Virus record (IMG/VR): IMGVR_UViG_3300025135_000496
Coordinates: 1-35,103 of that record
Direction: 5' to 3' (one strand)
DNA: 35,103 nt
Origin: a virus
How positions within the stretch are numbered: position 1 is the stretch's first letter; each line of letters opens with the position of its first letter. The position numbers were made by a program, and so were the translations under genes. The notes beneath the pieces were generated by a model. The model worked only from the letters and a program-made list of their open reading frames with translations. It was not told the origin of the DNA and ran no database searches. Positions 1,729 to 30,500 of this stretch are shown here, piece by piece.

Positions 1729-3597
1729 ATGAAAGTCGTCAATGAAGCTGTTGAGGCTGATAAAAAGCGGAAAAAGCTTTTAGAATACAGGAATGGTGGG
1801 GAAGGGTGTGCGCTGTGGGCTGAGGAGAATGTGTGCGCTTCTATATACCGGGTTGGGAGTGTCATACCTGAGTGGATACCTATTTCTGAGTTGCCTAAGA
1901 AGAAGAACGAGATCACAGGACGCTCACCTTACGATATGTGGCAGAAGCAGAAAGAGGTTCTTCATGAAGCCTTAGAAATGAAAAATAACCGTTTTCTTTA
2001 CAGGTTGATTGTTTTATGCTGGATGCGGGGTGAAAGTAAAAGTTTTCTTGCCTGTTTGATTCAGTTGTGGAAATTCTGTTGCTGGCCTAAACAGACTATT
2101 GTTCTTGGAGCTAACTCTAAAGATCAAGTCAAATTTGTCCACTTTGACATAGCTCGTGATCTGGTTTTGAACTCCCCTAATCTTCGGATGATTGTTGGAG
2201 CTAAGAATGTTCAAGAGAAAGAAATCAGAATGAAGAATAAAAAGGGAGAGGTTGTTTCGTTTATTCGGCCTATTTCTTCATTTTCTGGAATTGTTTCTAA
2301 TATTACTGGGTTTACTTTTTCGGAAATTTTCGACATGAAGCGGCCTAAATTCTACGAACAGCTTTACGGCTCGATTCGTAACATACCTAACGCTCTCGGC
2401 ACTATTGATTCTACCGTCAGTGACAAGACACACATACTGTATAAACTGTTCACAACCTACCGAGATAAGAAAGACAAGACTTTGTTTTTCTCTCATCGTG
2501 AATCTGAGAATGCTCTGCAGGAAGATTACTGGAACCCAGAAATGACCCAAGAGCAATTAGATTCATACAAGCTCAATCTGGTCAATTTCGCTCAGTATTT
2601 CAAGAATACTTGGGATGCTGGAAGTGTTAAGCCTATTACTGATGCCATGATAGATGCCTGCTCTTACATCGGCTATGACGGCACACCTGTAGTCAGTGAG
2701 TCTTTGGTCAATCTGTGTGAAGAAAAGAATGAGTACCAGAAACGCAGTGACAAGGCTTTGCAGGTCTATGCCTATCATAAAGACAAGGCAGATAAGATGA
2801 GGTTGTACTACGATAAAAAGGTAAGAGAAATCGCTGAAAGAATGACGAAATTCCCGGAAATTGCTGGAAATTACTTGATGGACGTGTCGGAAATCGAGAA
2901 AATTAGCGATATATATGGAACTGATTTATGCATACTGATTGGCTTAGACCGAGCCGACCCCCTAAAAGATAACAAAGAACTAGGCGCAAGAACTATTCTT
3001 ACAGTTATAGCCAAAGGTCTGCCTGACAGCAGGCATATTTTCAGGTCTGTGTATGACGATAACTACATGCCAAAATATATTTATTTCCCAGTCGGCATCT
3101 TCAACATTAAAGATCATAGTTTAGAGTCAATAAAAGCTGTTTTAAATCACGTACACTTAGAAATAGGCATTGATGCTTTTTGTTCTGAAAGGTGGGGTGT
3201 TTGGGATATGGTGGAGTGGTTTGAGGCTAATGATGTTGATTATGAAATCTTGCACCCAACTTACGAAAAACAGCGTGCCGCTTTTTCGGCTTTCTTTGAA
3301 GTCATGGCTAATGCACGTTTTAAATTGAATCTGATCAACCTTGAAGGCGTTAAAGGCGAAGATCAGTTCACAGAAGAATGCCAGCATTTTGTTCATCATA
3401 AGCAGAAACGTCAGTACGTGTCTGATGAGAAAGAACAGTTGCATGGTGTTCAAGACGATTTGCTGTATTCTATTGGTTGGGCTTTGTATGGGGGGAGGGA
3501 GCTTGGGCCTTCTGATTTTCGATCTTTACAGAAAAAGACGTTTTTTGGCAGTTATTTGCCGCCAGATGATGATATTGTTAAGGGGAATTATGATTAA
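1729..3597 (+). CDS. Terminase large subunit (ATPase-nuclease)
   Basis: This 622-residue protein would be the motor that pumps DNA into the prohead and cuts it. The ATPase half has a variant P-loop MRGESKS at residues 99-105, a Walker B-like FTFSEIFD (about 196-202) with the likely catalytic Glu199, and a coupling motif GTIDSTVS near 224-231. The RNase H-like nuclease half shows the expected acidic residues in GLDRAD (Asp407), GIDAF (Asp482) and QDDLLYSIGWAL (Asp576/577). All core motifs are present, so the gene looks intact at the usual length. The last eight bases overlap the acyltransferase start, which ties terminase translation to the sugar cassette. Portal, normally the next gene, is displaced by about 4.1 kb. 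Confidence 0.9.
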   Translation: MKVVNEAVEADKKRKKLLEYRNGGEGCALWAEENVCASIYRVGSVIPEWIPISELPKKKNEITGRSPYDMWQKQKEVLHEALEMKNNRFLYRLIVLCWMRGESKSFLACLIQLWKFCCWPKQTIVLGANSKDQVKFVHFDIARDLVLNSPNLRMIVGAKNVQEKEIRMKNKKGEVVSFIRPISSFSGIVSNITGFTFSEIFDMKRPKFYEQLYGSIRNIPNALGTIDSTVSDKTHILYKLFTTYRDKKDKTLFFSHRESENALQEDYWNPEMTQEQLDSYKLNLVNFAQYFKNTWDAGSVKPITDAMIDACSYIGYDGTPVVSESLVNLCEEKNEYQKRSDKALQVYAYHKDKADKMRLYYDKKVREIAERMTKFPEIAGNYLMDVSEIEKISDIYGTDLCILIGLDRADPLKDNKELGARTILTVIAKGLPDSRHIFRSVYDDNYMPKYIYFPVGIFNIKDHSLESIKAVLNHVHLEIGIDAFCSERWGVWDMVEWFEANDVDYEILHPTYEKQRAAFSAFFEVMANARFKLNLINLEGVKGEDQFTEECQHFVHHKQKRQYVSDEKEQLHGVQDDLLYSIGWALYGGRELGPSDFRSLQKKTFFGSYLPPDDDIVKGNYD

Positions 3598-3976: not shown

Positions 3977-4658
3977 ATTTGTCTGTTATAAATGGTGTAA
4001 TGAACAAAGTAATAAGAATGTGTACGTTTATAAAGCCGATCATGTGAACAGGCTTTATAACATGCTTGAAAGAAAGTTAAGACAACCTTTTGAACTTTAT
4101 TGTATAACTGATGATTCTAATAACCTAAATCCATTCATTAAAACAATACCTTTGCCTGTTGAATATAAATTGTGGGGGGAAAGATGGTGTCTGGTCTGGT
4201 CGTTTTCTGAAGAAATGAAAGAACTGGTTGGTGACAGGTTTGCGGTTTTAGATTTAGATGTGGTTATAGTTGATTACATTGATGATTTATTTGATAATGA
4301 CCATGATATTGTTCTGATGAAAGGCACTTCAAAAAACAAGACTCCTTACAATACAGGCTTTATTTACATGAAAGCTGGCAGTAGACGGCTTATTTGGGAT
4401 TTTTTTGATGTTGAGCTTGCTGTCAGGCTTCAAGAAAAGACTCGGTATGTTGGGACTGCTCAATCATGGGTTGGAGCTTTTTTACGAGAAGAAGCGGTTT
4501 GGAGTAAGAAAGAAGGGGTTTATGCTTACCGTTTATTGAAAGATAAAGAAAACCTGCCTGAAAATGCAAAAATTGTCTTTTTTCCTGGAGCTAAAGATGA
4601 TCCTTCTCAAACAGAAGTACAAAAACAGAGTCCTTGGATACTAGAGCATTGGCGATGA
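3969..4658 (+). CDS. GT-A-type glycosyltransferase, family uncertain
   Basis: This 229-residue protein is probably a nucleotide-sugar-dependent glycosyltransferase in the cytoplasm. A hydrophobic strand ends in VLDLDVVI (residues 93-100), whose D95-x-D97 is the metal and sugar-nucleotide binding motif of GT-A enzymes. PYNTGFIYMKAG (126-137) resembles the acceptor-side loop of GT8-like enzymes, and a late FFPGAKDDP resembles their C-terminal motif. There is no signal peptide or membrane segment. Its start overlaps the acyltransferase stop (ATGCTTAA) and its stop overlaps the mutase start (ATGA). The donor cannot be read from sequence. UDP-galactofuranose from the next gene's product is an attractive guess. 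Confidence 0.7.
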   Translation: MLKFVCYKWCNEQSNKNVYVYKADHVNRLYNMLERKLRQPFELYCITDDSNNLNPFIKTIPLPVEYKLWGERWCLVWSFSEEMKELVGDRFAVLDLDVVIVDYIDDLFDNDHDIVLMKGTSKNKTPYNTGFIYMKAGSRRLIWDFFDVELAVRLQEKTRYVGTAQSWVGAFLREEAVWSKKEGVYAYRLLKDKENLPENAKIVFFPGAKDDPSQTEVQKQSPWILEHWR

Positions 4659-5764
4659 AAAGAGTGTTGATTGTTGGTGCTGGTCTGTCTGGTGCTGTTT
4701 TGGCTAGAGAACTGGCTGAATCTGGTGTCAGAGTTCTAGTTATAGATAAACGAGATCATGTGGCAGGTAATTGTCATATTGAACGTGATGAAGATACAGG
4801 CATACTTGTGCATAGATACGGCGCACATATTTTTCATACTGATGATAGAGAGGTTTGGGATTATTTGAGAAGGTTCTGCAAACTGTATCCATACGTAAAT
4901 AGATTAAAAACTTCAATTTCAACAGGTATCTATTCATTTCCAATTAATCTGCATACCTTAAATCAGTTTTTTGAATTGCATCTGAAACCGAAAGAAGCAG
5001 AACAGTTTTTAAAAACACAGGTCACTAAGATTGAAAAACCGCAAAATTTTGAAGAACAGGCATTGAGTTTAATCGGTGAAGATTTATACCGAGCATTTTT
5101 TTATGGTTATACTAAAAAACAATGGGGTGTGGAACCTTGTGAATTGCCTGCTTCAATTTTGAAAAGACTGCCTGTTCGGTTTAATTATAATGATAATTAT
5201 TACAATCATAGATACCAAGGCATACCGATTGAAGGTTACACAATTGCCGTGCAGAGAATGTTAGATCACAAGAATATTGAAGTATGGCTTAAAATGAACT
5301 GGTTGAAAGATATGCTGAATGAATATGAGCATGTTTTTTATACTGGTACTATTGATGGTTTTTACGATTATTGTTATGGGTATCTTGGGTATAGGACTGT
5401 TTTTTGGGATAGGTGTGTTTATAATGGTGATTTTCAAGGAACAGCAGGCATAAATTACCCAAGTGAGCATATACAATTCACACGTATACGAGAGCATAAA
5501 CATTACACACCGTATGAAAATCATGAAAAATCAGTTGTTTTTTTTGAATACAGTAAAGAAACAGGCAAAGCCGATGTTCCCTATTATCCAAAAAGATTGC
5601 CTCATGATTTAGAATTATACCAAAAATATGCTTTATTAGCGAATAATGATAAGAAAGTTACGTTTTTGGGGCGTTTGGGTGGCTATGAGTATTTAGATAT
5701 GGATCAAGCTGTACGAAAAGCTTTAGGTACTGCAAAGGAGTTTTTATGCGAAAGATATTCTTAG
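4655..5764 (+). CDS. glf: UDP-galactopyranose mutase
   Basis: This flavoenzyme interconverts UDP-galactopyranose and UDP-galactofuranose, supplying Galf for glycan synthesis. It has an N-terminal FAD-binding VGAGLSG (residues 7-13), then DKRDHVAGN, the signature HRYGAHIFHT (about 53-62), GYTKKQWG (about 151-158), KRLPVRFNYNDNYY (about 170-183) with QGIPIEGYT after it, and a C-terminal GRLGGYEYLDMDQA. At 369 residues it matches the size of bacterial Glf and appears intact. A TTG seven codons upstream (4634) keeps the frame open, but ATG 4655 forms an ATGA overlap with the previous stop and places the FAD motif at the normal position. No gene making UDP-galactose is present, so the substrate must come from the host or from outside this window. 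Confidence 0.95.
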   Translation: MKRVLIVGAGLSGAVLARELAESGVRVLVIDKRDHVAGNCHIERDEDTGILVHRYGAHIFHTDDREVWDYLRRFCKLYPYVNRLKTSISTGIYSFPINLHTLNQFFELHLKPKEAEQFLKTQVTKIEKPQNFEEQALSLIGEDLYRAFFYGYTKKQWGVEPCELPASILKRLPVRFNYNDNYYNHRYQGIPIEGYTIAVQRMLDHKNIEVWLKMNWLKDMLNEYEHVFYTGTIDGFYDYCYGYLGYRTVFWDRCVYNGDFQGTAGINYPSEHIQFTRIREHKHYTPYENHEKSVVFFEYSKETGKADVPYYPKRLPHDLELYQKYALLANNDKKVTFLGRLGGYEYLDMDQAVRKALGTAKEFLCERYS

Positions 5765-6327
5765 ATTGTGGTGGGTATGATGGGAGGGCGGCGGTAAAAT
5801 TCAGTAAGTTTTTTCCTAATTTCGAGATTTTCAGTTTTGAGCCAAATGCCACTCTGAATAAATTTTATAAACATACAAACATTGTTTTTCTGCCTTTTGC
5901 TGTTTGGGTTGAGAATTGCAATTTAGATTTTTATTTGGATGAAAAAGATTATGACGGCAGTTCGGTTTTTCAAGAAAAGAAAAATATAGTCGGTGGCAGA
6001 CACACAAGAGTACAAGGTATTGATTTCAGTTCTTACGTGAAAAGCTATTTTGATGAAGATGATTTTATCATTGTTAAAATGAATATCGAAGGTGCTGAAT
6101 ATAAAGTTCTGAATAAAATGATACGAAGTAAATCTATTAATTATATCAATGAATTGTTTATTGAGTTTCATTATAAAAAAATGGATATGCCTGAGAATGA
6201 ACATAATCAGTTGGTTGGTAAGTTGGAAAAATCTGGATTAGATGTTCAGCTTTGGGGTGGTGTTAAGCGAATTGATACAGTGGTAAATTATCTTAAAAAG
6301 AAACATGAAAATAATTTATACGGCTAA
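5746..6327 (+). CDS. FkbM-family methyltransferase
   Basis: This 193-residue S-adenosylmethionine-dependent methyltransferase resembles FkbM proteins, which usually O-methylate sugars or polyketides. Motif I is FLDCGGYDGRAA (residues 5-16), followed by FEPN at 31-34, AVW at 52-54, the family-typical DGSSVF near 70-75, and KMNIEGAEYKVL at 111-122, a hallmark of the family, then IEFH. AAAGGAG sits six bases before the ATG at 5746. The start lies 19 bp inside the mutase gene and the stop overlaps the next gene by 23 bp. With the acyltransferase it forms a pair of tailoring enzymes for the putative glycan. It is slightly short for the family but seems complete. Confidence 0.85.
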   Translation: MRKIFLDCGGYDGRAAVKFSKFFPNFEIFSFEPNATLNKFYKHTNIVFLPFAVWVENCNLDFYLDEKDYDGSSVFQEKKNIVGGRHTRVQGIDFSSYVKSYFDEDDFIIVKMNIEGAEYKVLNKMIRSKSINYINELFIEFHYKKMDMPENEHNQLVGKLEKSGLDVQLWGGVKRIDTVVNYLKKKHENNLYG

Positions 6328-6973
6328 TATAGGTGGTTATGATCAACCTATACCTCTTTGTAGTGAAATAAGGGGTGAGTGGGAGGCTTTTTATTTCACT
6401 GACGATGTTTCTTTAAAGGTTAAAGGTTGGCAGATGATTTATGTAAAATACAATTTGCCTAATGTAGCAGTATCAAAAGAGATTAAAATCAGACCACACA
6501 GGTATTTTCCTGGTGCTGATTATTTTTTGTGGATTGATTCTACTCATGAAGCTATTAGACCATTGAATGATTTTTTTCGTTTCTTTCAAGAAAGAGATAA
6601 GGATTGCACTGGATGGATGGCGAAAAGGCATACAAAGAGAAATTGTGTTTATGAAGAATTGTACGCACCTAGAGTAATGAAAAAAGTCAAATTAGCTACA
6701 TTGAAACAGTTAGAAAAATTCTACCGAAGAAAGAAAATGCCAAGAGATTACGGCTTGCCTGAAAATGGTGTGTTTTTTAAAGCAAATACTGAAAAAACGC
6801 AGAAGATTAGTGAATTGTGGTGGAAAATGATGGTTAGTAATAAAGCCTATCGAGATCAGATTTTTTTGCCTTATGCTATGTGGAAATATAATTTTATGCC
6901 TAGCTGGTACACAGAAGAAGAAAAAAGACAATATGTGGTTAAAAAATTTAAACACTTAAAGAAAAAGACATGA
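6305..6973 (+). CDS. DUF616 (TOD1/MUCI70-like) glycosyltransferase
   Basis: This 222-residue protein matches the layout of the DUF616 family of glycosyltransferase-like proteins. It has IYTANIGGYDQP at residues 4-15, FYFTDD at 29-34, KIRPHRYFPGADYFLWIDST at 61-80 with a DxD-like site, a KRHTKRNCVYEEL block at 107-119, and a late AYRDQIFLPYAMW. These blocks occur in the order and spacing I know for the family. It has no signal peptide and should act in the cytosol. Members occur in bacterial polysaccharide clusters and in plants, and most have no proven donor. It overlaps the methyltransferase by 23 bp and the next gene by ATGA. Confidence 0.75.
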   Translation: MKIIYTANIGGYDQPIPLCSEIRGEWEAFYFTDDVSLKVKGWQMIYVKYNLPNVAVSKEIKIRPHRYFPGADYFLWIDSTHEAIRPLNDFFRFFQERDKDCTGWMAKRHTKRNCVYEELYAPRVMKKVKLATLKQLEKFYRRKKMPRDYGLPENGVFFKANTEKTQKISELWWKMMVSNKAYRDQIFLPYAMWKYNFMPSWYTEEEKRQYVVKKFKHLKKKT

Positions 6974-7695
6974 TTATGGACATAGATGTTGTTTATTTTA
7001 ATATTCAGAAAAGTTACTCTCGTCATGCTGAATTGAGGTTCAGTCTAAGGTCGCTAGAAAAATATGTGTCAGGTATTAAAGATGTCTATGTAATCGGTTA
7101 TGCGCCTGAATGGTGCGAGAACATAGTGTTCATCAAGAAAAATGATCCTTACCATAAAAACAAAGATGCCAATATCATTCGCAAGATGATTCATTGTTGT
7201 CAGAATGATCAAATAAGTGATCCATTCTTATTTGTAAATGATGACCATTTTTTCAGCCAGCCAGTGAAAGCCGATAATTTTTTGTTCTATCATAAAGGCA
7301 CATTGTTTACTGATACTGTAAATGCCATGTATCGGCACAGAATAAACAGAACCAGAGAGTTATTGCTTGCGAAACAACTGCCTGTTTTTAATTATGATAT
7401 TCACACTCCTATTTTAATCCACAAAGAAAAATTACTAAATGCTTTTCAAGGCTTTGATTATATTGGTGATTATATAGTCATGAAAAGCTGGTACATGAAT
7501 AATTGGGAAGGATTTGACAAGGGCGTGGAAATAGTTGATTGTAAATTTAATTCTTCGGAAAGAAGAACTTTGTTAGAATTAAAGCCGAAAGTCAAAGCCA
7601 GACCTTGTTTTTCGGTTACTGATCAAATGTCTAAGCAAGTAATAAATCTCTTGCATTGCATGTATACTGAACCAAGTAAATACGAACAGGTGTGA
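6970..7695 (+). CDS. Stealth-like sugar or sugar-phosphate transferase
   Basis: This 241-residue protein carries blocks typical of the Stealth family, whose characterised members transfer sugar phosphates during capsule synthesis. It has DIDVVYFN at residues 4-11, ELRFSLRSLEKY at 21-32, DVYVIGYAPEW at 38-48 and LFVNDDHFFSQ at 87-97, containing the conserved Asp pair. It is shorter than full Stealth proteins, so it may have only the central catalytic region. The ATG at 6970 overlaps the previous stop (ATGA), and a second ATG two codons later could also serve. It is the last gene of the cassette and abuts the portal gene. A plain GT-A glycosyltransferase is the main alternative. Confidence 0.65.
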   Translation: MIMDIDVVYFNIQKSYSRHAELRFSLRSLEKYVSGIKDVYVIGYAPEWCENIVFIKKNDPYHKNKDANIIRKMIHCCQNDQISDPFLFVNDDHFFSQPVKADNFLFYHKGTLFTDTVNAMYRHRINRTRELLLAKQLPVFNYDIHTPILIHKEKLLNAFQGFDYIGDYIVMKSWYMNNWEGFDKGVEIVDCKFNSSERRTLLELKPKVKARPCFSVTDQMSKQVINLLHCMYTEPSKYEQV

Positions 7696-15521: not shown

Positions 15522-16160
15522 ATGGCTTTGACTAGAACTGGTCCAGTAACCAGAAATGCACAATCTGTAGCACTTGGTCTTGCGAAAATACTTGTGGGTC
15601 CTTCAGCAACTAATATTGCTAGTACCGCACAGGTATTGAACGAAACTACTGATTCTATGGGTGCTATGGCGAGTACTAACTTTGTGAGTGAAATTGAGTA
15701 TTGGAAACTTGAGTCAGGTTTTCCAATGCTGGAAGATTTGACTTTGCCTTTGCGGGAAACTGCCAGACTTGAATGTGAGTTCAAAGAAATCACTTTGAGA
15801 AACTTGGCTATTGCTCGTGGTATTGATGCTGATGAAGAAGATTATCCCCACGCAATGATCGCAGGCCCAGGGGAAGAAGATGAAATCAATCTTGGTTCTA
15901 TTAAAGCACCGGATTATGTACGTATGGAAGCTATTTACACTTATCCTGATCAACAGCATCAGATGATTATAGTGTTCCCTCGTGCAAACGTTACTTCTTC
16001 TGTTGAACTTACTCTTGCGGCAGAAGATAATGCCAATGTGCCGATCACCTTTGAAGCTAAACGTGCTGACAGTGGTTTGACTTCTGGTGGAAATGAGGCT
16101 TGGGATGATGCTCCTCTTGGCAAGATTTTCTTTGCGGCAGTAAGTGGTGGTTCACCATAA
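15522..16160 (+). CDS. Major tail tube protein
   Basis: This 212-residue protein should polymerise into the tail tube. It sits directly before the assembly chaperone and tape measure genes and has the strong ribosome site AGGAGG (15511-15516), as expected for an abundant protein. A run of SEIEYWKLESGFPMLEDL (residues 56-73), APDYVRMEAIYTYPD (126-140) and MIIVFPRANV (145-154), then an ITFEAKRADSG ending, matches the beta-sandwich layout of siphovirus tube proteins. It is followed by the largest non-coding gap after the leader, containing a strong hairpin. Confidence 0.8.
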   Translation: MALTRTGPVTRNAQSVALGLAKILVGPSATNIASTAQVLNETTDSMGAMASTNFVSEIEYWKLESGFPMLEDLTLPLRETARLECEFKEITLRNLAIARGIDADEEDYPHAMIAGPGEEDEINLGSIKAPDYVRMEAIYTYPDQQHQMIIVFPRANVTSSVELTLAAEDNANVPITFEAKRADSGLTSGGNEAWDDAPLGKIFFAAVSGGSP

Positions 16161-16295: not shown

Positions 16296-16694
16296 ATGGC
16301 AGATCAAAAACTAAATCCCCAGATACGAAAAGTACAGGTAGGTGTACGTGAACTTAAAGAAATCACCATTTATCCGCTATCAATAGCAGATCAAATGAAA
16401 ATGGTTGATATTCTTAAAAATGTTTTCGATGAAATTTTCAAAATGCTTGAAACAGAGGATCAGACTGTAGCAATAGCCAATGTTATTGTTGAGCAGGTTA
16501 AAGCCAACCTGCCTGAACTGTTGAAGTATGTAACTGATGAAATTGTTCAACTTGAAGATATGACGAATTTTCAGTTCACAACTATTGTTGGTCACGTTTA
16601 CAAGGATAATTTTGAGGACGCAGGAAAAAACGTGAGCAACCTCGTGGGGACGATGAAGAATCTGTTCAGCTCCACGAGGTCTTTACAGCAATAA
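16296..16694 (+). CDS. Tail assembly chaperone, upstream frame (gpG-like)
   Basis: This 132-residue protein should coat the tape measure during tail assembly, as lambda gpG does. It sits between tube and tape measure genes, has a mixed helical sequence (LSIADQMKMVDILKNVFDEI, residues 28-47) and contains near its end the slippery heptamer A-AAA-AAC at 16625-16631. Ribosomes that slip there by -1 continue into the downstream frame. Those that do not slip finish 63 bases later at TAA 16692-16694. GGAGG precedes the ATG by seven bases. Confidence 0.75.
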   Translation: MADQKLNPQIRKVQVGVRELKEITIYPLSIADQMKMVDILKNVFDEIFKMLETEDQTVAIANVIVEQVKANLPELLKYVTDEIVQLEDMTNFQFTTIVGHVYKDNFEDAGKNVSNLVGTMKNLFSSTRSLQQ

Positions 16695-17041
16695 TGCATT
16701 ACTACCCAAGCTACAGACTTGAAGATTTTTATCAAAAGAGTTTTAAGCAGGGTGGTTTAACGGCGGGTCAGATAAATGTTTTATATGGTAATTACATAAA
16801 ACAGATTAACAGTGAATTTAAATTTCAAGCGGCTTTACAAGGTATTGATCTTGATAAAACTGGCAAATCTACAAGTAGAGTAACACCAAAACAATCTTCC
16901 ACCAATGCTCTACCTTTATTTGGGTCACCTGAAGATTACGCCCATTTAAGTGAAGAAGAACGACAAGAAATGACACAAAAAATGATGGGAAAACATAAAT
17001 CTTGGGTGCAAAAGACAGTCCCCAAATCCATCACGAGGTAG
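16296..17041 (+). CDS. Tail assembly chaperone frameshift fusion (gpGT-like)
   Basis: This is the predicted -1 frameshift product of about 248 residues: 112 from the upstream frame, then 136 from the downstream frame. After the slip, the -1 frame reads CGT GAG CAA CCT without a stop and joins the downstream frame, adding an acidic linker (RGDDEES) before the MHYYPSYRLEDF domain. In lambda the T part recruits tail tube subunits to the tape measure. The downstream frame also has its own ATG at 16694 overlapping the upstream stop (TAATG), so some independent product is possible, but the complete frameshift signal makes the fusion the better reading. Confidence 0.75.
16625..16680 (+). promoter_or_regulatory. 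Programmed -1 ribosomal frameshift signal
   Basis: The heptamer A AAA AAC is at 16625-16631 in the correct phase (GGA AAA AAC). After a seven-base spacer, ACCTCGTGG (16639-16647) pairs perfectly with CCACGAGGT (16672-16680). The stem gains one G-U and one G-C pair inward (16648-16649 with 16670-16671). Slip site, spacer length and stem all match the standard X-XXY-YYZ layout. The stop of the zero frame lies 12 bases after the stem. Confidence 0.85.
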
Positions 17042-17044
17042 AGC

Positions 17045-20000
17045 ATGTCGGTCAGTGAACACCAATTATTAGTTGATATTGTAGGCAGATTAGATGCTAA
17101 TCTGACCAAAGCTTTTGCAACTTTAAATAGTAAACTTAAAGCTTTAACTGCACAAATAAAGTCTTTGAATACTGTTACTAAAGAGATGCCTAAATCTGCG
17201 GACAAAGCTACGCAGTCACAAACAAAATTAGGTAAATCTATTGATGATTCTTCAACAAAAGTAAATCGTTATAGTCAATTAGTTAAAAAATTCGGCAAAG
17301 ATACTGAATCTGGACTTCAGGCGGCTAGACCTTTGTTTAAAGCTTATGCTCAGGGTGCGGAACAGGCTGGAGAGTCTTTGGAACAGGCTAATAGACGAGC
17401 TACTAATATGGTTCGTGGTTTAGCCACCATGCAGAACCAGTTGACTCAAACTAATGAAAAATGGGCTAGGTGGGGAGAACGGACTCGTGCTGTTCAAATT
17501 CGTCAGGCTGAATTGAATGGGCATATTCGTGCCACTGCTCAAGGCATACAGATATTAAATCCACTTGCCTTAAAAAATCTTAATTTAACACAACAACAAG
17601 CTAAAGCAATTGGTTATTACACTGATCGTAATGCCGCTTTTCATAAATCTTTGATGCAAGTAGCTCAAGCTACTAAAGGTAATCAAGCGGCATTTGTTGA
17701 AAAAGAGAAAGCTTTATTAAAAGCTGATGATGCTATTCGTAAAACTGCCCAAGCTATGACTCGTGCAGGTAAAGATGGGGATGCTTTTGCTCGAACTGCT
17801 AATCGAGGCAGAATTGCTTTTCAGATGATGACTGGGGAATTAAAAACAACAAATGGTGTTTTAACTCCAACAGCTCAAAAATTAGGTTTAGTTGCTAAAC
17901 AAGGTACTTTAGTCCAAAGAGTTATTGGTTCAGTTGCAGAGTCATTTAAGAGTATGGCTAGGTATGCGGCTGGAGCTATGGTTTTTTATCAGTTGTTTAA
18001 TGTTTTTAGAACTGGTGTAAAAGCAATTATTGATTTCAGCCAAGGTATGCGAGATTTGCAGGCTATTATTAATGCTACTGATGATGATATGCGTAGATTA
18101 GCTGAAACGACTAAACAAGTTGCGGCTGATACTAAATATAGCACAACTGAAGTAGCTGATGGTATGAAACTGCTTGGTCAGGCAGGACTTGATGCTAGTG
18201 AGATTATGTCGTCTATTCAGCATGTGGCAGAATTAGCTACTGGTACTATGTCTGATTTTGCAATGGTTTCTGATTTGGTTACTACTACTGTTCGTGCTTT
18301 TCAGATGGATTTTCGTGAAACAGGTAATGTAGTTGATGTTTTTGCTAATGCGATCAACCGTTCTAAATTGACGGTTGATAAATTAAGAGTAGCATTTAAC
18401 TACATAGCTCCTTTTGCTCATGCCGCAGGCATATCATTTGAAGAAACTACTGGTTCTTTAATGCAATTGGCTAATGCTGGTATCAGGGCTTCTACGATGG
18501 GTACTGGTTTTAGGCAGATATTGATTCGTCTGCTGAACCCAACAGCAACTTTTAAAAAGGCAATTGAAGAAGCTGGTTATTCTGTGGATGATTTTAATCC
18601 AAGAACTCAAGATTTAGCTGATATATTTGATCGTTTAAGTGTAGTTGTGCCTTCTGCCGCTGAAGCTGTTCAATTCTTTCATGTACGTTCTTTGCCTGCT
18701 GTTATGGTTTTTGCTTCTCAGGGTGGGGATGCTTTGAGAGGGTTTTTAGATGTGATTTCAGAAGTTGGAGCGGCGGCTCGAATGATGGAAACACAGACTA
18801 AAGGTTTAGGTATTCAGTTTAAGCAAATTGCAGATAAATTTACTGTTTTGTCTGCTTCACTTGGTCAATCTGGATTAGAAGGATTACTTTTAGGTTTAAC
18901 TATAACAGTACGAAAATTTTTAGATATTTTAATCTTTTTAGCCAATAAAGGTTTTACATCAGTTATTATCCAAGTTGGTGTTTTGGTGGGTGTTTTAAAA
19001 ACATTACAAGCGGCTTTTCTTGCTTTAAGAGGGCCAGCTATTGCTACTGCTTTATTTGGATGGGGAGCAGGAATAAAAGGATTGATTGTTCATATTACTG
19101 CTTTAACTACCGCTATTATTACGCAGACAGGTGTTACTAAAGCGGCGACTGCCGCTTGGCTTGCTTTTAATAGGGTTCTTCTTGCTAATAAATTTATAGC
19201 TGTGGCTACGGCGATTGTAGCTGTTATTGGTGCATATCGTAATTTTTCTAATGCTAATGAAAACGCAAAAATACGATTAGAAGATAAGAAAAATGCATTA
19301 AGAGATACTATTGCTGTTATGGATTTGTATGTTGATAAATTAGAAGAAGCGCAAAGAGAAGAAAAAGGAACACAGCAAATTATCAATAGGTTGATTCATG
19401 AATTACCAGAATTAGCTAATGAAATTCGTATGGTTAATATTGAAGGTGGTGATCTTGTTCAGTGGTTGAAAGATATGTCTGCTGAAAAGACAGTTCAAGT
19501 TATGACGGCTGTTGGGCAACAAGCGGCACTTGCATTAAAAGATATTGAAAAATTTGGTTTTCGTTTAGAAATTTGGAAAGGCAATTTAGATGGTGTGTCA
19601 ACAGTTTTAGGAGAAATTAAGAATCCAATAAATTCATTATTAAAAAGATTAGGTTTTCTTGATAAAGCCATTGAAAAAAATACTCTTTTAGTTGAGAAAA
19701 ATAAAGCCCAATTTCGTGAATATGTTTTAGATACTATGACTTATTTACGGCAACAAGGAGATAGTTTTGAAGGCGCAAGAGAGAAAATTAAAAATATTTT
19801 GCGTTTATCTGGTGTTGATTTACAAGAACATGCTGAATTTATAGATGAAGTTTTTGCTTATGTTGAAGCGTCAATTAAAAGTTTTGAAAATGCAACTATT
19901 GAATCATTTCGGCAAATGCCGAAAATTTTGGATGATTTAAAAGATAAATATTCGGATGTAGCTGACGATATTTCAAAATCATGGGAACAGACTTTAAATA

Positions 20001-23000
20001 GTATTGAATTAGTTAATAAAGAACTTGAAGATAATATGATAGATGAGGAAGAAGCTAAAAAACGTATACTTAATATAATGAGGGAACTTACTAATTCAAT
20101 ACATGAATTAACAGGTGAAATACATCATTTTATGCACGCTTCTGAAAATCTTGATAGATTTTTAATGAATGCTACTGAAGAATTTAATAATTTTTTTAAA
20201 ACATTATCTGGTTCGGAATTACAAGATTTAGCAAAAGCTATTGACGATGCTAGTGATTCTTTAAAAGAAATGGAAGAATGGTTAAGAAAAGTATTAAATC
20301 TTTCAGAAGAACAAATAAAAGATATTATTGATGAAGAATGGGGACGGAGACAATTAGAAATTCTGATGAAATTTTCTGAGGAGTTTAGAAATCGCTACCG
20401 CACTCATCTTGATATAATTAAGGAAATGGAAGATCGGCATACTGAAATTCAAATCAGCAGATTAGAACGTCAGGTTGAGGCTAATAAAAGAACTCTTGAC
20501 CGTAGGCTAGAAGATGTAAAGCGCAATGCTGATCAAGAAATTGCTTATCTTGATTTAGGTGCAAAGTATTTTGCTCAGATTCAAGCTTCTAAACTTGAAC
20601 ATTTAAGGCAGGCAGAAATACAGAAAGTACAGATTATTCAAGGTGGTGTTTTAAAAGAACAGTCTTTTTTAAATGAAGCCAAGAATAATTTTGTTAAAGA
20701 TATTTATGATCGTGTTGAAGTGGTTCGTGGTGGTCAGCTTACCATTGAAAAATTTCTGAAAGAAGGTGTTACTGCTTTTGAGAAAGCTGAATATGAAAAA
20801 ACTTATGCTTTAAAAGGTATAGAAGATGAAAAACGCAGAATACGCCAAGAGGCTTTTGATCAGCAGTTAAAGCTTGTTCATGGTCATTATGTTAAAGAAA
20901 TGGAACTTGTCAGTCAGATGGAAGATGCTCTGCTTGGCAATTACGATAAGCGTTGGCAACGAGAGCAGGGTTATTGGGAAGCTAAGGGCAAGCTTTTAGG
21001 TGATCATTTAGATACTCATCTTAAAACTCTGAATACTGAAGAAACAATGACTGCCAGAAGTCAGGCAGAACTTGTTCAGATCAGATTGAGAACCTTTGAC
21101 CGTTATATTCAGGCACATCAGAATTATTTGTCTAATCTTGAAGGTATGCTTTCACAAGAGCGTTCTCATCATCAGAATACAGTTAATGAAATCATTAATA
21201 TCAGAAAATCATTGATTGATGATGAAATACGCAAATATGATAAATTACGTGAAATAGCCAGAGAATACATGACTGATGAGCAGAAGTTAGCTGATTCTCG
21301 TATGGAATATGAAAATCAGATGGCTAAAGCTAGAGCCGCTATTGCCGTGCAAGATTATGAAGCGGCTAAGAAGCATGTGGATGCGGCACTTAGGGCGGCG
21401 GGTGAGATAAAGAAAGAAGATGAAGATAAACTGACCAGACAGCAAAGAATCATTGATGCTGAGAATTTACTTGCTCAAGCCAAAGAAGATCAGATTAATG
21501 CTTTAGAAAAAGAAGCTGAAGCAAGTAAAAAACGCATGGAAGATTTAGAGGCCAGTATTCAAGGTGTTACTAAGAGATTGGAAGAAATTCAGGAAATGAA
21601 GTTTCAGGTTGAAGTTGAGAATATTACTGAATCTGTTGCTCGTGCTGAAGAAGAAATTGAAAAGATCAGAAAAAGACTTGAAGCTGAACCAATTGAAATG
21701 GATTTCAAGATTAATACTGAAGAAGCAGTTAAAGAGGCAGTTGAATCAACCAAAGAGGTACAAAAGACTATTTCTGACCTTGAACCTATTGTGGCTGAAC
21801 TTGCGGTTAGGGGTGAGGGTGGAGAAGAACTAAAAACTTATTTTGATAATGTTAAAGAGGCTTTTAATAATTTTTGGGAAGAATTTAAAAATCATGATTC
21901 AGTAATTACTACCATATTCTTTAAAGGTTCTGGTTCTGAAGAATTGCCCTTATCTGAAAAATTAGATGAGTTAAAACAAAAATTTGATGATTTTGTTGCT
22001 CATATTATTAGAAGTGAGGATGATGATAAACTTGCTGTTTTGATTGAATTTAAGGGACATTTTGGGGAAGAAAAGCCTTTGCTTGATACTTTTAATGATG
22101 TCGCTAAAATTCTGAAAGAATTTAAAAATCTTATTGAAGAACCTATTCAAATGGCAATTGAATTTGTCAGTAACGATGGCAGTACATCTATGGAATTAAT
22201 TAAAAAATTAGATATACTGGCTTATATGTTTGAATATTTACGAAGTAAAGTTGAAGAAGCAATCGTAATGAATGTTTATACTAAAGAAGCTATGGAAAAG
22301 TTGGAGGAATTACAAAAGAAAATTGATTCTATACCGAAAGAAACCAAATCTACTCATACAGTTAATGTCATAGGTATTGATCTGCTTGAAAAGGTTCTGG
22401 CTTTACATCAGAAATTAAATGGTATGAGTACAAGCTCAACTCATACTGTAACTGTTCGCAGAGTACAGGCTAGTAATACTGGTGGTGAAATAGGTTTTGA
22501 TTCTGATCTGAGAGGTTATGCCACTGGTGGTTACATACCAGAAGGCCGTTTTTCCCGCAAGCAGGGAGCGATACCGGGCCGTGGCACTAAAGATGATGTA
22601 CCTGCCATGTTGACAAAAGGCGAGTACGTACAGCCTGTTTCTACGGTAGATTATTATGGTAAGGGGTTTATGGAAGCTTTGAGGCAGAAACTTATACCAA
22701 AAGATGCTTTGCCTAAGTTTGCTACTGGTGGCTATGTTCATAAAGATTCTGTGCCTCATTTTTATACTGGTGGACCTATAGAGGATCAGCAGTTAAGAAT
22801 GGATTGGTATACTGAAGAATACTATCGAAGAAATTTTCCTAGATTGTACGAAACATTATATGGCACTAAAAGTACTACTTCACAAAGTTTAAAAATAAAT
22901 ATTCCAAGTGATGTTAATCAAGCTATAAAGGGTGGAGGGCATACTGAAACTTTACAAAATGAATTTCAAAATTATTTGGATCGTTTTAATGAATTAGGTT

Positions 23001-24127
23001 TAAATAGTTCAAGTCAATTACGCCAAAAAAATACTGATATAATGAGTATAGTTAGTGAATTAGCTACAGGTATGATTGATCGTGGCAATATGAGTGATAC
23101 GGCTATTAAACGATATGATTTTGCTTCTGAAACAATAGTTCAAGATTTACGTAATCAAGCTGATTATTTGCGAGATCAAGGTTTAGAAGATATTGCTTTT
23201 AAAGTTGATGAATTAGCTTATGATTTGCAAAATTTACTGCATGATTATCGTGAAAAAATAATTCAAGTAGCAGATGATATGGCAAATATAATTCAAAGAG
23301 CAGACGAAACAGCTTTACAGATGCAAACACAATTAGAAAATCAGATAGCTTCTTTGGAAGAACAAAAAAGAAGATTACGTGAAGAAGGCAAAGAAACTAT
23401 GTATCGGTATCACCGAACAGTTTATGGTGGATATAGTTTAGAAATGTATCGTGATCTTAATATGTATTCACCGAAAGGTATGGAAGCAATACGCCAAATT
23501 AGAGATATGGAGCGGCAAGTAAATGCTACAAGATCACAGACTTCTTCTAATTACAAATTATTGGAACAAAATACACAAAGACAGGTTGATTCTTTAGGAT
23601 CTCTTGTTGGCAGATACGCTAAAAAGACATCTTTAGATGGTGGTTTTACTTACCGAAAAGCTGAACATGATTTAAATTCTTATATGCATAAAGCTATTCG
23701 TGATTTTCGTGAGTTAGAAATACAGGCTAGGCGGGAATTGCAGAATTTAGTTGGTAGAGATGCACCTAAAGTTGGTGTTTCACATTGGCTGAATAAAGGT
23801 GGTTTGATTGATTACTCTGGTAATGCCAAGAGAGGTGTTGATTCTGTTCTGGCTAAATTGACACCTGGAGAATTTGTTATACGAGAACCTATTGTACAGA
23901 AGCTGGGTGTGGATTTCTTTGAAAAATTAAACAAGCATGGTGTAGCTGGTTTTAATCAAGGTGGTCTGGTCACTCAACAATCATCAGTTCCAAATACAAT
24001 TGATTCTGGTTTTAATGCCACTGTGAATATTAATATTGGTAATAAACTGTACCCAGCCAAAATGAAAGAATTTGATGCCAGAGAATTTGTCAAGAGTTTG
24101 AAAAATGCTGAACGAAGGATGCATTGA
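17045..24127 (+). CDS. Tail tape measure protein
   Basis: This 2360-residue protein sets tail length. At the common rule of about 0.15 nm per residue it predicts a tail near 350 nm. Residues 330-540 match the phage minor tail/tape measure domain (FSQGMRDLQAIINA, LGQAGLDASEIM, YIAPFAHAAGISFEETTGSL). Residues 615-745 are hydrophobic and may insert into the host membrane. Residues 1130-1560 are charged coiled coil. Residues 1583-1740 hold four 38-43-residue repeats. A Gly-rich block with GRGTKDDVPAMLTKGEYV (about 1850) recurs in variant form as GVDSVLAKLTPGEFVI near 2265. No lysozyme or peptidase motif was seen. The GAGGT ribosome site overlaps the chaperone stop. Confidence 0.95.
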   Translation: MSVSEHQLLVDIVGRLDANLTKAFATLNSKLKALTAQIKSLNTVTKEMPKSADKATQSQTKLGKSIDDSSTKVNRYSQLVKKFGKDTESGLQAARPLFKAYAQGAEQAGESLEQANRRATNMVRGLATMQNQLTQTNEKWARWGERTRAVQIRQAELNGHIRATAQGIQILNPLALKNLNLTQQQAKAIGYYTDRNAAFHKSLMQVAQATKGNQAAFVEKEKALLKADDAIRKTAQAMTRAGKDGDAFARTANRGRIAFQMMTGELKTTNGVLTPTAQKLGLVAKQGTLVQRVIGSVAESFKSMARYAAGAMVFYQLFNVFRTGVKAIIDFSQGMRDLQAIINATDDDMRRLAETTKQVAADTKYSTTEVADGMKLLGQAGLDASEIMSSIQHVAELATGTMSDFAMVSDLVTTTVRAFQMDFRETGNVVDVFANAINRSKLTVDKLRVAFNYIAPFAHAAGISFEETTGSLMQLANAGIRASTMGTGFRQILIRLLNPTATFKKAIEEAGYSVDDFNPRTQDLADIFDRLSVVVPSAAEAVQFFHVRSLPAVMVFASQGGDALRGFLDVISEVGAAARMMETQTKGLGIQFKQIADKFTVLSASLGQSGLEGLLLGLTITVRKFLDILIFLANKGFTSVIIQVGVLVGVLKTLQAAFLALRGPAIATALFGWGAGIKGLIVHITALTTAIITQTGVTKAATAAWLAFNRVLLANKFIAVATAIVAVIGAYRNFSNANENAKIRLEDKKNALRDTIAVMDLYVDKLEEAQREEKGTQQIINRLIHELPELANEIRMVNIEGGDLVQWLKDMSAEKTVQVMTAVGQQAALALKDIEKFGFRLEIWKGNLDGVSTVLGEIKNPINSLLKRLGFLDKAIEKNTLLVEKNKAQFREYVLDTMTYLRQQGDSFEGAREKIKNILRLSGVDLQEHAEFIDEVFAYVEASIKSFENATIESFRQMPKILDDLKDKYSDVADDISKSWEQTLNSIELVNKELEDNMIDEEEAKKRILNIMRELTNSIHELTGEIHHFMHASENLDRFLMNATEEFNNFFKTLSGSELQDLAKAIDDASDSLKEMEEWLRKVLNLSEEQIKDIIDEEWGRRQLEILMKFSEEFRNRYRTHLDIIKEMEDRHTEIQISRLERQVEANKRTLDRRLEDVKRNADQEIAYLDLGAKYFAQIQASKLEHLRQAEIQKVQIIQGGVLKEQSFLNEAKNNFVKDIYDRVEVVRGGQLTIEKFLKEGVTAFEKAEYEKTYALKGIEDEKRRIRQEAFDQQLKLVHGHYVKEMELVSQMEDALLGNYDKRWQREQGYWEAKGKLLGDHLDTHLKTLNTEETMTARSQAELVQIRLRTFDRYIQAHQNYLSNLEGMLSQERSHHQNTVNEIINIRKSLIDDEIRKYDKLREIAREYMTDEQKLADSRMEYENQMAKARAAIAVQDYEAAKKHVDAALRAAGEIKKEDEDKLTRQQRIIDAENLLAQAKEDQINALEKEAEASKKRMEDLEASIQGVTKRLEEIQEMKFQVEVENITESVARAEEEIEKIRKRLEAEPIEMDFKINTEEAVKEAVESTKEVQKTISDLEPIVAELAVRGEGGEELKTYFDNVKEAFNNFWEEFKNHDSVITTIFFKGSGSEELPLSEKLDELKQKFDDFVAHIIRSEDDDKLAVLIEFKGHFGEEKPLLDTFNDVAKILKEFKNLIEEPIQMAIEFVSNDGSTSMELIKKLDILAYMFEYLRSKVEEAIVMNVYTKEAMEKLEELQKKIDSIPKETKSTHTVNVIGIDLLEKVLALHQKLNGMSTSSTHTVTVRRVQASNTGGEIGFDSDLRGYATGGYIPEGRFSRKQGAIPGRGTKDDVPAMLTKGEYVQPVSTVDYYGKGFMEALRQKLIPKDALPKFATGGYVHKDSVPHFYTGGPIEDQQLRMDWYTEEYYRRNFPRLYETLYGTKSTTSQSLKINIPSDVNQAIKGGGHTETLQNEFQNYLDRFNELGLNSSSQLRQKNTDIMSIVSELATGMIDRGNMSDTAIKRYDFASETIVQDLRNQADYLRDQGLEDIAFKVDELAYDLQNLLHDYREKIIQVADDMANIIQRADETALQMQTQLENQIASLEEQKRRLREEGKETMYRYHRTVYGGYSLEMYRDLNMYSPKGMEAIRQIRDMERQVNATRSQTSSNYKLLEQNTQRQVDSLGSLVGRYAKKTSLDGGFTYRKAEHDLNSYMHKAIRDFRELEIQARRELQNLVGRDAPKVGVSHWLNKGGLIDYSGNAKRGVDSVLAKLTPGEFVIREPIVQKLGVDFFEKLNKHGVAGFNQGGLVTQQSSVPNTIDSGFNATVNINIGNKLYPAKMKEFDAREFVKSLKNAERRMH

Positions 24128-24519
24128 TGATTACTTTAGATTCAAGTCAAGGTTCGATAACATTACCAAATGAGTGTATTTGGTTTGATGAATTTGAATG
24201 GACTAATATTAAGGCTAAGAGTTTTTATTCAATCACTGGTGATTTGATTGTTGAACCTGCGTTTACGAGTAAGGGTCGGCCTATTACTTTAGGTGGTGAT
24301 AATGCGATTATGCAAAGGTCAGATTTATTGGAATTGATTGAATGGACTAATGTCTTGAATTTGACTATGGTTTTGACTTTGCATGATGGACGTTCATTTA
24401 ATGTGATTTTCAGGTATTGGGATGTGCCTGTGGTTCAAGGCACAATGCCGAAACAAGGTTATTCTGCACCTGAAGATGAATATTACTATATTTTAACTTT
24501 AAAACTGGTTGGTATATGA
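24127..24519 (+). CDS. Putative tail tip protein
   Basis: This 130-residue beta-rich protein lies directly after the tape measure, where siphoviruses encode the first tail-tip proteins. Visible blocks are ITLPNECIWFDEFEWT (residues 11-26), GRPITLGGDNAIMQRSDLL (about 50-68) and FRYWDVPVV (about 95-103). I recall similar small proteins in siphovirus tail modules, but the exact role is unproven. ATG 24127 shares its first base with the tape measure stop. An upstream TTG (24124) is less likely. Confidence 0.5.
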   Translation: MITLDSSQGSITLPNECIWFDEFEWTNIKAKSFYSITGDLIVEPAFTSKGRPITLGGDNAIMQRSDLLELIEWTNVLNLTMVLTLHDGRSFNVIFRYWDVPVVQGTMPKQGYSAPEDEYYYILTLKLVGI

Positions 24520-25337
24520 GCATTAAAAACAGCGTTTCTACTTACATAACTGTTACTTATGATTCTGGTACAGAAGATGGAGATTTAAGCCCTCATGTAT
24601 TATTTCACATACCAGATACAGGCATACCTTGTGGTCAGGTTATGCCTATGTTTCTTATTGCCGCTAATGAATCATATTTAGATGGTTATGTGCTGTTTTA
24701 CGAGCAGGAGTCTATGGGGCCTGGAACTAGAGTTGTTATGCCTAATGAAGTTACAGAAGAAGTTTTAAGTTTCGCTGAACAAGATTTGTTTCAGTTAGAA
24801 TTTCCAATCGCAAGCATAGTTTCAATCACAGGCAGGTTTATTAAAGGCATTTTTAATACCAGTAATGAATTAATTGATACAGCGATGTACGAAGGTGATT
24901 TTATTAAATTAGGTGGTTCGGCAGTTGGTCCAGAAACCAGAGATAAATTATATGGTGACGGTATAATTGAATACTATCCAGGCAGATACAGAACACGTTG
25001 GAATTGGACTGTTAATTGTTCGAGAGAGAAACATTGGTTCTTTTTAAAGAAGAACGGAATAATTGTTCGTAAGTTTGAAATAACCGTTGATGTTGATCAA
25101 ATTATTGCGGCTACTGGGGAAAGAATGGTGGTATTGCGTATACTCGAATTTTCTTCCCGTGCTCCAGTAGTAGGCGCTCAAGTTAGAGTTAATGGTAATT
25201 TACTTGGAAACACAGATGAATATGGAGAAGTAGATACTATTTTGAATGTTGGGACACATAATGTGCATATTAGTAAAGCTGGTTATGTGCCGTCAGATGA
25301 AGATGATATATCAAATGATGAAATTGAAGTAAGGTAA
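24516..25337 (+). CDS. Tail protein with C-terminal Ig/carboxypeptidase-regulatory-like domain
   Basis: The first about 205 residues of this 273-residue protein are beta-rich with no family I can name (HIPDTGIPCGQVMPMFLI, EYYPGRYRTRWNWTV). Residues 210-265 look like a carboxypeptidase-regulatory/PEGA-type beta-sandwich: RAPVVGAQVRVNG, a TDEYGEVDTILNVG turn and VHISKAGYVP. Such domains are common adhesive or spacer elements on phage tail tips. ATGA overlap with the previous gene indicates coupled translation. Role at the tail tip is inferred from position. Confidence 0.5.
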   Translation: MSIKNSVSTYITVTYDSGTEDGDLSPHVLFHIPDTGIPCGQVMPMFLIAANESYLDGYVLFYEQESMGPGTRVVMPNEVTEEVLSFAEQDLFQLEFPIASIVSITGRFIKGIFNTSNELIDTAMYEGDFIKLGGSAVGPETRDKLYGDGIIEYYPGRYRTRWNWTVNCSREKHWFFLKKNGIIVRKFEITVDVDQIIAATGERMVVLRILEFSSRAPVVGAQVRVNGNLLGNTDEYGEVDTILNVGTHNVHISKAGYVPSDEDDISNDEIEVR

Positions 25338-26899: not shown

Positions 26900-27596
26900 T
26901 AATAAATCACACATGCCATTTTTAAACACAATAGATGGCAGACTCATTAAAATGTTCTGTGTAAGTCCATCATTAAATATTTGGAAAATTGTTGTGGGAG
27001 AAAATAAGAAACGTTTAGGCACAAATTCTGATACATCAACTGTTGAATGTTCACCTGTATTTTGGCAAGAGAATGGTTTTATTAAAGGCAGTTATGTCAG
27101 TGGTGATGTTAAACAAAAATATCATTTATATGCTTTTATAACTACAAATTTGCATGGTTTATTGAATAATTTAAAAACACAGCCAATTGAGCAGACAAAA
27201 GCAGGTTGTGTGTTCCCAAAAGGCCGAGCATTTGTACGTATGAAAATGATGAATAAAACAGAATATACATATTTATATGTATATTACGTAAATAAAAAAC
27301 ACATTTATGAATTACTTGATAATTATATTTATCGTGTATCTTTTAATCCACAAAACACATCAGAATTGTTTATTAGTGGTGGAAGCAAAGGAAATGTTTG
27401 GGCTATAAGTCTGAATTTAGATACTGATCAACAACAAGATATTAAATGTGACGGTTATCCAGCCTACAAAATGGCTTTTTTTAATAACAAAATTGAATAC
27501 GCTTTAAAAATCGGCACAGAGTTTGAAGATCGTCAAATTAAAACAGCTAAACATATTGAATATAAACCAATTCAATTATTACAAAGAGTTATGTAA
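26892..27596 (+). CDS. Hypothetical protein with propeller-like segment
   Basis: This protein of about 234 residues has a C-terminal half containing IYRVSFNPQNTSELFISGG followed by GNVWAIS, which reads like one or two WD40-type blades. The N-terminal half is basic and has no family I can name. The start is uncertain: ATG 26892 gives the same eight-base overlap with the upstream stop seen elsewhere in this operon, while ATGs at 26859 and 26883 are possible. It ends in TAATG shared with the big fibre gene and may be its partner. Confidence 0.45.
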   Translation: MDNNKSHMPFLNTIDGRLIKMFCVSPSLNIWKIVVGENKKRLGTNSDTSTVECSPVFWQENGFIKGSYVSGDVKQKYHLYAFITTNLHGLLNNLKTQPIEQTKAGCVFPKGRAFVRMKMMNKTEYTYLYVYYVNKKHIYELLDNYIYRVSFNPQNTSELFISGGSKGNVWAISLNLDTDQQQDIKCDGYPAYKMAFFNNKIEYALKIGTEFEDRQIKTAKHIEYKPIQLLQRVM

Positions 27597-30500
27597 TGTT
27601 TTATTTTAATATGGTTGATTACAGTTACAGAATACGTTTTACATTTGAACGTTCTGAAATAAGCAGTGAAGAATCTAATTTTCCTGTTTTAATTAAATTA
27701 AATTCTGATAATTTTGATTTTACTAAGACTCAGTATAATGGAATTGATTTGGTTTTTGTTTTGAGTGATAATGAAACTCTTTTAGATTTTGAACGAGTAA
27801 AATATGATGTTATTAATTATGAAGCTGAGTTTTGGGTAAAAATACCTGTTTTATCGAATAGTCCTTTATTAAGTTTTTATATGTATTTTGGTAATATTCA
27901 CCAAACTGAAGATTTGTCTAGTTCTGATGTGTGGCAGAATAATTATGAATTAGTTTATCATGGTGTTAAAAAAGTAACTTCAGCACAAATTGATATTGTT
28001 TCTACTGAATTTTATTTATTTTCTAAAGCACAAGAAGATGTTTACAAAGGTCTAGTATCTTTTGATAAAGATTTAAAAGTAATGTTTTTAAATAATTATG
28101 TGCCTAATTTAAATGAACATCAATTTTTAAGTGATGTTAAAGATTTTGAAATCAGTGAAGGCAAGTTTTATTCAGAATATGGTTTTGATTTAGAAAATCT
28201 CAGTTTTGATCGTACTGATGATGTTATTAATTGGGTGGCGGATAAAACCGAATTAAAATATATTGAACAAGATATTAATTGTGCCGTTGTTTACCAAGCA
28301 ACAAATGACCCACCAGAATCTACTGATCGTTTATTAATGTTGATTATATTTGAATGTGATGGTGAACAATTAGTAACAATACCTTTTGATACAACAACGG
28401 TTTTAGAAATTGATTGGGATTTAAGTATAGTAATAAATTCTTCTTTTATTTATTCTCCAACAATTAATTATCCTTATGATAATGCGGAAAATATTGCTTT
28501 AGATGCAGAAATTGAAAGTTCAGCTTTTTCAACTTTTAAAGAAGCTGACAGTCATATTGCTTCTGAATGGGAAATTTATCATAATGATGAATTAATACAT
28601 ACAAGCAATGAAGATCCGACAAATTTAATTACTTATACTTCACCATTCAGTGAAGTGCCTTTGGGGGAATTGTGTCAGGTTAGATGTCGGCATAAAGGAG
28701 TTGATTTAGGTTGGAGTAGGTGGGGGGATTTTGTCACTTATCGTTATGCTACACCTGTTCCTAATATTTGTTCAATTATCAAACCAGAAAATAATAAATT
28801 ATTGTCTAATGTTAATGTTTTAGTTAAAGGTTCTGTTTTTTCATCACCTATTTCTCAAGAAACGCATGAAGCTTCAGAATTTGAATTATATTTAAATGAT
28901 GATCTGATTGAAAGTGAGAGTCTAGAAGCTGGAGATTTAACTTTAGTTATTTTTCGAGGATTATCAGAAGATACTGAAGGGTATAAAGTACGAGTTCGTT
29001 ATAAAGGAGCTGTTCTAGGTTGGTCTGAATGGAGTGGGTTTGTTAATTTTTCAATTTCAGAACTTGGTTATATTTATGTAGGAGATGGATGGCACAATTA
29101 TAGGTTACAAAATACAGGAGAAGAATTAACCGAAAAAACCATTGCTCCTCGAAATTGGGGAGTTAAAAAATTTCTTTTTCATTCAAATGGCACTATTTAT
29201 TTGAATATAGATAGGGAAATACATCGTATAAATCCAACTACAAAAGAGGTAATAACTACAGCAAGTAAGTATGGATCTGTTACAGATCTAAACATTGATT
29301 ATCAAGGTTTTGTTTACGGTTCTTATGAAGAATTTAATGGTTTAGCTCGTTTCCATCCAGAAACTTTAGCTACTATAACTAATTATAGTTATAATTATGT
29401 TTATAGAATTTTAATTACTGTTGATAATTATATGTTTTTACTAAGTGATTCAGGTTTACGTAAATTGCATGTAGATAATTTAAATTTAACTTTAGGTTGG
29501 TTTGCTTTAACTCATTGGGCTAATTATGCGATAGTTTATAAAGGGGATTATGTATATATAGGAACAGATACTTTAATTTTACGGATTAATCGAAATACAA
29601 TGGAACAAAAAGGGCAGGCTTTTTCAAATCATATAGGAAGAATCACTAATTTAATCATTGCTGAAGATGGTTATTTATATAGTTTTTCTCTTGATTATAC
29701 TATTAAAAAAATTGATATTTCAAATCCTGAAGTGCCTATGCAAGAAATTGGTTCTTTATCTTCATATTATGTGCCAGCATTTACAGATATATTAAATGAA
29801 GATGGTTATTTATATTTTGTTTCTGATTTTGCAATTGGTAAATTAAGATTAAGTGATTTTACTGTGATAGGAGAATATGGATGCACAATTGGCACATACA
29901 CATTATCAACCCAACCTTATAGTTTTTATTTAGATTCTGAAAATAAATTATATGTATCATACAGTAATGATGGTATAGTTGTACTTAATAATGAAACATT
30001 TGAACTTATTGATGTAATTATTTCTTTTATTGCTAATTACACATTAAGTATGAATTTTTTAAAAAATAATGTTTATGCTTTTGAACGCACTAATTATTCT
30101 GGTCATGTACGAGTTATAAAATATGATAATAATTTAAATTTTAAAGAACTGCATTATGTTCAAACAGAAGGTTCTTATGTACCACGTTCAGTTTTATTGC
30201 ACAATAATTATTTTTATATAGGCAAAACTGCTGTACGTATAAGCAAAGTGCAATCATCTGATTTAACTGAAGTGACCTCTTTTGCTTCTTCGAGTACAAA
30301 TACATCTTATCATTCGTATGCATTAGCGGCAGATAAATATGGTTATTTATATTCTGGTGGTAGAACACTTCATTCTGGTTATTCTAGCACTTATGATATA
30401 ATGAAATTCAATGCTGTTACACTTGAATTTTTAAGTTTTATGTCAGGGCATACAAATTTAGTTTATGCTTTGTATTGTGATGATAATTATTTGTACAGTG

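Follow-up and report, generated by a model that had tools for sequence, protein, structure and literature searches.

Directly upstream of a tape-measure gene, the 35,103-base IMG/VR virus record IMGVR_UViG_3300025135_000496 (analysed here over its whole length and called the window) carries two overlapping frames on the + strand, and the question that they raise is whether they specify two separate proteins or are joined during translation into one. The first of them, the zero frame, is an ORF of 132 aa (16296..16694, +), and the second is a -1 frame whose extension of 136 aa plus stop lies at 16631..17041 (+). An earlier note, made from the letters of this DNA, had described at this place a textbook -1 frameshift signal in a tail assembly chaperone gene. 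That signal is real, as was confirmed from the sequence. Our reading, to which we give a probability of roughly 0.94, is that the two frames probably constitute a long-tailed phage's gene for the G/GT tail assembly chaperone, and that they would be expressed by a programmed -1 ribosomal frameshift.

The zero-frame codons at the site are GAG GAC GCA GGA AAA AAC GTG AGC, so that the slippery heptamer A AAA AAC (16625..16631, +) stands in the X XXY YYZ phase, i.e., it is read as GGA AAA AAC GTG within the ORF 16296-16694, just as the earlier note had stated. The seven-base spacer that had been claimed is GTGAGCA (16632..16638, +), and in the relatives this spacer measures 5-7 nt. It is followed by the predicted stimulatory stem, whose 5′ arm (16639..16649, +) and 3′ arm (16670..16680, +) are supported by folding, by covariation and by a covariance model. 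This stem had been given as 9 bp, or 11 with one G-U; it is an 11-bp stem with nine Watson-Crick pairs, one G-U and one G-C, and it closes a loop of 20 nt. The zero-frame stop codon TAA (16692..16694, +), which overlaps an ATG at 16694-16696, does come after the stem, but at a distance of 11 bases and not of 12 as had been written. The minimum free energy of the region 16632-16694 was -23.5 kcal/mol (z = -3.7 against dinucleotide shuffles), and none of 200 shuffles equalled it.

The heptamer by itself is common in this A-rich genome, in which AAAAAAC was observed 27 times against 23 expected. When the 87 in-phase X XXY YYZ heptamers in the ORFs of the window were screened, site 16625 had the strongest downstream stem of all, and it was one of only four sites with a -1 frame that extends beyond the zero-frame stop. 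A stem equal to this one or better was found at only 9 of the 10063 in-ORF positions of the window, and none of 1000 synonymous recodings in which the -1 frame protein was kept reached the score of the stem. A second in-phase heptamer with a long -1 frame, T TTA AAA, was noted at 24498-24504, 22 nt ahead of the end of the ORF 24124-24519, and there the -1 frame extends for 277 codons, into the ORF 24516-25337; since that site has no strong stem and the two genes share a plain ATGA overlap, it may be due to chance.

Relatives were then collected from IMG/VR. Two of them were retrieved with the downstream protein as query, and 41 loci with a profile built from three sequences of the upstream protein, of which 36 non-redundant ones, window included, were left after the removal of duplicates and of one truncated locus. 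The sole match obtained with the upstream protein alone, locus L001, lies in a replication region and was rejected as a chance match. A query with the N-terminal part of the tape-measure protein found no relatives in IMG/VR, and no relative of the family was found among the INPHARED phages or in the GTDB genomes. The earlier note had proposed that the heptamer and the stem be looked for in relatives, and both proved to be conserved: an in-phase X XXY YYZ heptamer is present at the junction in 35 of the 36 loci, with a -1 frame that is open well beyond the zero-frame stop, and a stem of 7-13 pairs, with compensatory changes, starts 5-7 nt past the heptamer in 28 relatives and the window (29/36 loci). 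The heptamer has the form A AAA AAN in 32 of the 36 loci (A AAA AAC in 24, A AAA AAA in 5, A AAA AAG in 2 and A AAA AAT in 1), and three others carry different slip sites, namely G GGA AAG in L041 (4396), C CCT TTC in L029 (4336) and C CCT TTA in L031 (4330). L026 is the only locus among the 36 in which a canonical heptamer was not found (4301-4361). In the 32 loci with an A6 heptamer, which were picked for having it (the four exceptions being L026, L029, L031 and L041), the codon ahead of AAA encodes nine different residues and yet ends in A at 32 of 32 sites (background 27%). At the same sites the lysine codon is AAA in every case (32/32, background 59%), and the asparagine codon is AAC in 24 of 25 (background 38%).

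The hairpin was analyzed in the same way. Among 33 sequences, stemless ones included, 89.6% of the cells in the stem columns were paired, and both sides had changed at six of the nine stem pairs (in 33 cells, compared with 8 for shuffles). When the arms were slid by one column the pairing dropped to ~52%, and it collapsed for slides of 1-3 columns. With 21 ungapped sequences RNAalifold returned the same stem, as 8 bp with compensatory changes at five of the eight pairs; with all 33 sequences, the stemless and long-insert ones included, it returned no structure, but the named stem still scored well there. In addition, a covariance model built from 20 relatives, with the window excluded, matched 16622-16691 of the window (50.6 bits, E = 5e-8), and no second match to it was found anywhere in the window. 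In hairpin-stimulated -1 frameshifts of the dnaX or Loki type the stem lies 5-9 nt past the heptamer, and the covarying stem of the family lies within this range; the slip site and its signal are under selection at the nucleotide level. The hairpin lies in another register in L038, none comparable to the family stem was found in L011, L036 and L041, and in L026, L029 and L031 no more than about five pairs form. A simple search for a pseudoknot gave no recurring loop-to-downstream helix across 21 sequences, and Rfam had no match at the site.

The -1 frame of the window is open at 16616-17038, and so also from the slip site on, as had been claimed, and the fusion comprises 112 + 136 = 248 residues, in agreement with the earlier figure of about 248. 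The -1 frame protein can be aligned throughout the family from the slip site on (motif ExxVTxVCExYGYRLEDFYxKS...GGxT...), and nearly all family loci have only a short +1 frame. The acidic linker that had been ascribed to the fusion is present in the window (REQPRGDDEES), but all that the relatives retain there is a P near residue 4 and a polar stretch that varies between them. The zero frame ends 67 nt after the heptamer in the window and ~130 nt after it in many relatives, in which the later stop falls at the conserved GG(L/V)T codons (read directly in L003, TTA ACA). These frames could also be explained by two separate proteins, the downstream ORF being translated from the ATG at 16694 by termination-reinitiation at TAATG and the heptamer being incidental, and this alternative survives best, although we consider it very improbable. 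The overlap of TAA and ATG in the window is indeed a geometry that permits reinitiation, and a GAGG sits 14 nt upstream of this ATG. However, conservation of the -1 frame starts at the slip site, ~21 codons ahead of the ATG at 16694, which is codon 22 of that frame and lies within residues 14-24, where the first helix of the T domain is predicted, so that a start there would cut the helix. Furthermore, an ATG at this position is absent from all relatives, the first ATG being at codon 46 or beyond in all but one of them, and the conservation of heptamer and stem at the nucleotide level would be left unexplained. The downstream frame is thus coding in continuity with the upstream frame, without a conserved start of its own.

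A still smaller probability was given to transcriptional slippage, in which the RNA polymerase would slip on the A run and produce mRNAs of altered length, so that a ribosomal shift would not be needed. There is an A run at the site, which is longer in L011 and L044 (8 A) and in L036 (9 A), and the long-run loci L011 and L036 (both at 4312) are without a stem. The window and most relatives, however, have only 6 A followed by C, and the phase, the constant spacer and the covarying stem are needed by a ribosomal mechanism and not by a polymerase one. It is conceivable, but in our judgement unlikely, that the recoding route was swapped more than once in this family, with the hairpin and A6C in most loci, loss of the hairpin and long A runs in others (8 in L011 and 9 in L036), where the polymerase possibly slips, and C CCT TTC/A or G GGA AAG elsewhere; if true, this would resemble the contrast between the dnaX genes of E. 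coli and Thermus, inside a single phage gene family. That the two frames come from an error in sequencing, or from the decay of one gene, has a negligible probability and is refuted by the relatives. A single contig by itself could hold an indel error, but 35 other non-redundant loci, taken from many metagenomes, show the same two-frame layout, and in the relatives the zero frame is also open beyond the slip site.

The surroundings of the gene bear on what the frameshifted protein may be. The tape-measure gene (17045..24127, +; 2360 aa; phrog_1533 'tail length tape measure protein', E = 4.7e-65) lies directly downstream of the two frames, and it was the next gene in five of five relatives tested. 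Upstream lies the gene of a probable major tail (tube) protein (15522..16160, +), a weak assignment made from phrog_2729 (E = 4e-4), from Phage_TTP_17 (E = 0.025, below the cut-off) and from position. In L003 (1891-2520) and L004 the chaperone is preceded by a gene that resembles the putative tail-tube protein of the window and that has about ten threonines in a row at its end. The upstream proteins of the family matched phrog_1442 'tail assembly chaperone' (PHROGs) in 13 of 35 cases, with a best E of 1.7e-7. The G protein of the window had no significant family match, its best being PF23789 Pre_tape_measure (E = 3e-4, below the cut-off). An AlphaFold model of this protein (pLDDT 81) gave weak fold matches to several proteins named tail assembly chaperone and to the 'Pre-tape measure frameshift protein G' of Xylella phage Sano; a PDB fold search with the same model gave no tail chaperone match, and a fold search with the T domain gave no match. 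The earlier assignment as a tail assembly chaperone gene is supported by the phrog_1442 matches in 13 of the 35 family members and by the tape-measure gene directly downstream, and we retain it as the probable identity of the protein. Two other regions of the window were noted. A block of sugar-related genes at 4634-7695, between a terminase-like gene (1729-3597) and the head genes, encodes a UDP-galactopyranose mutase (PF03275, E = 1e-66), an FkbM methyltransferase, a glycosyltransferase and a Stealth_CR2 protein, and in the tail region a 1083-aa protein (27596-30847) combines a DUF2341-like N-terminus with C-terminal WD40-type repeats, which is unusual for a phage tail protein.

Under the programmed frameshift that we propose, most ribosomes would stay in the zero frame and produce the 132-aa G chaperone, and a minority of them, with their tRNAs on AAA AAC and delayed by the hairpin 7 nt downstream, would slip back by one base and read on for 136 residues, so that the 248-aa G-T fusion would be a minor product. 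By analogy with lambda, the tape-measure protein may carry a coat of many G copies, and the few G-T copies may recruit the tail-tube protein through their T domain. The earlier word textbook suits the signal as far as its phase, spacer, stem and conservation are concerned, but less so its strength, as E. coli ribosomes slip less readily on A AAA AAC than on A AAA AAG (PMC5009743), and the fusion itself is deduced from the sequence. From these data we infer the occurrence of the shift, its efficiency and the functions of the chaperones, and the weaker A AAA AAC would fit a low-level shift.

The slip site of lambda is G GGA AAG, and its G/GT shift is not known to require a stem. The family of the window differs from lambda in that A AAA AAC is combined with a hairpin that is conserved, and also in the zero frame, which in most relatives runs ~130 nt beyond the heptamer; a tblastn search of the phage collection gave no match. 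In both systems two overlapping frames lie between the major tail and tape-measure genes, with a -1 shift near the end of G that gives a short G and a longer G-T. The frameshift in the lambda G/GT tail assembly chaperone is credited to Levin 1993 and to Xu, Hendrix and Duda 2004, as cited in PMC5009743, and a G protein accompanied by a minor G-T fusion made by -1 slippage is known from lambda and many phages (PMC5009743). The tail chaperone gene of Acinetobacter phage Loki (LN890663) has A AAA AAC (PMC5313236), and in this analysis an 8-bp hairpin was found ~8 nt downstream of it, so that heptamer and hairpin are shared with the window; unlike in the window, the Loki slip site lies directly at the zero-frame stop codon and a further gene stands between the chaperone and the tape measure, and the Loki chaperone protein is not detectably related to that of the window (hhalign probability 2%). 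Caulobacter phage phiCbK, which was compared by its published description, also has a tape-measure chaperone with a -1 shift at A AAA AAC (PMC3556154), and the same heptamer is used in the tail chaperone of haloarchaeal HCTV-2 (PMC5009743). In Caulobacter phage Seuss (KT001914, annotated 'ribosomal slippage') the -1 shift in the tape-measure chaperone combines T TTT TTC with a hairpin, the zero frame runs ~150 nt beyond the slip site, and the protein is unrelated by sequence to that of the window. E. coli dnaX resembles the window in that a stem-loop follows an A-rich heptamer within a few bases, but its heptamer is A AAA AAG and a Shine-Dalgarno-like stimulator lies upstream of it, whereas the GAGGA present upstream in the window is not conserved in the relatives. 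Since A AAA AAC is known from phiCbK, Loki and HCTV-2, and hairpins occur in Loki and Seuss, the architecture as such was already known. What is added here is a protein family of which, at the sensitivity used, sequenced phages have no member, together with the depth of the covariation evidence. The analysis brings together two frames that would be split in annotation, gives a name to a chaperone family that goes undetected by standard libraries in the phage of the window, and provides a comparative, covariation-backed example of a probable -1 shift in tail chaperones that is stimulated by a hairpin, in which the conserved, weaker A AAA AAC with its hairpin offers a natural series for how phages tune the ratio of G to G-T.
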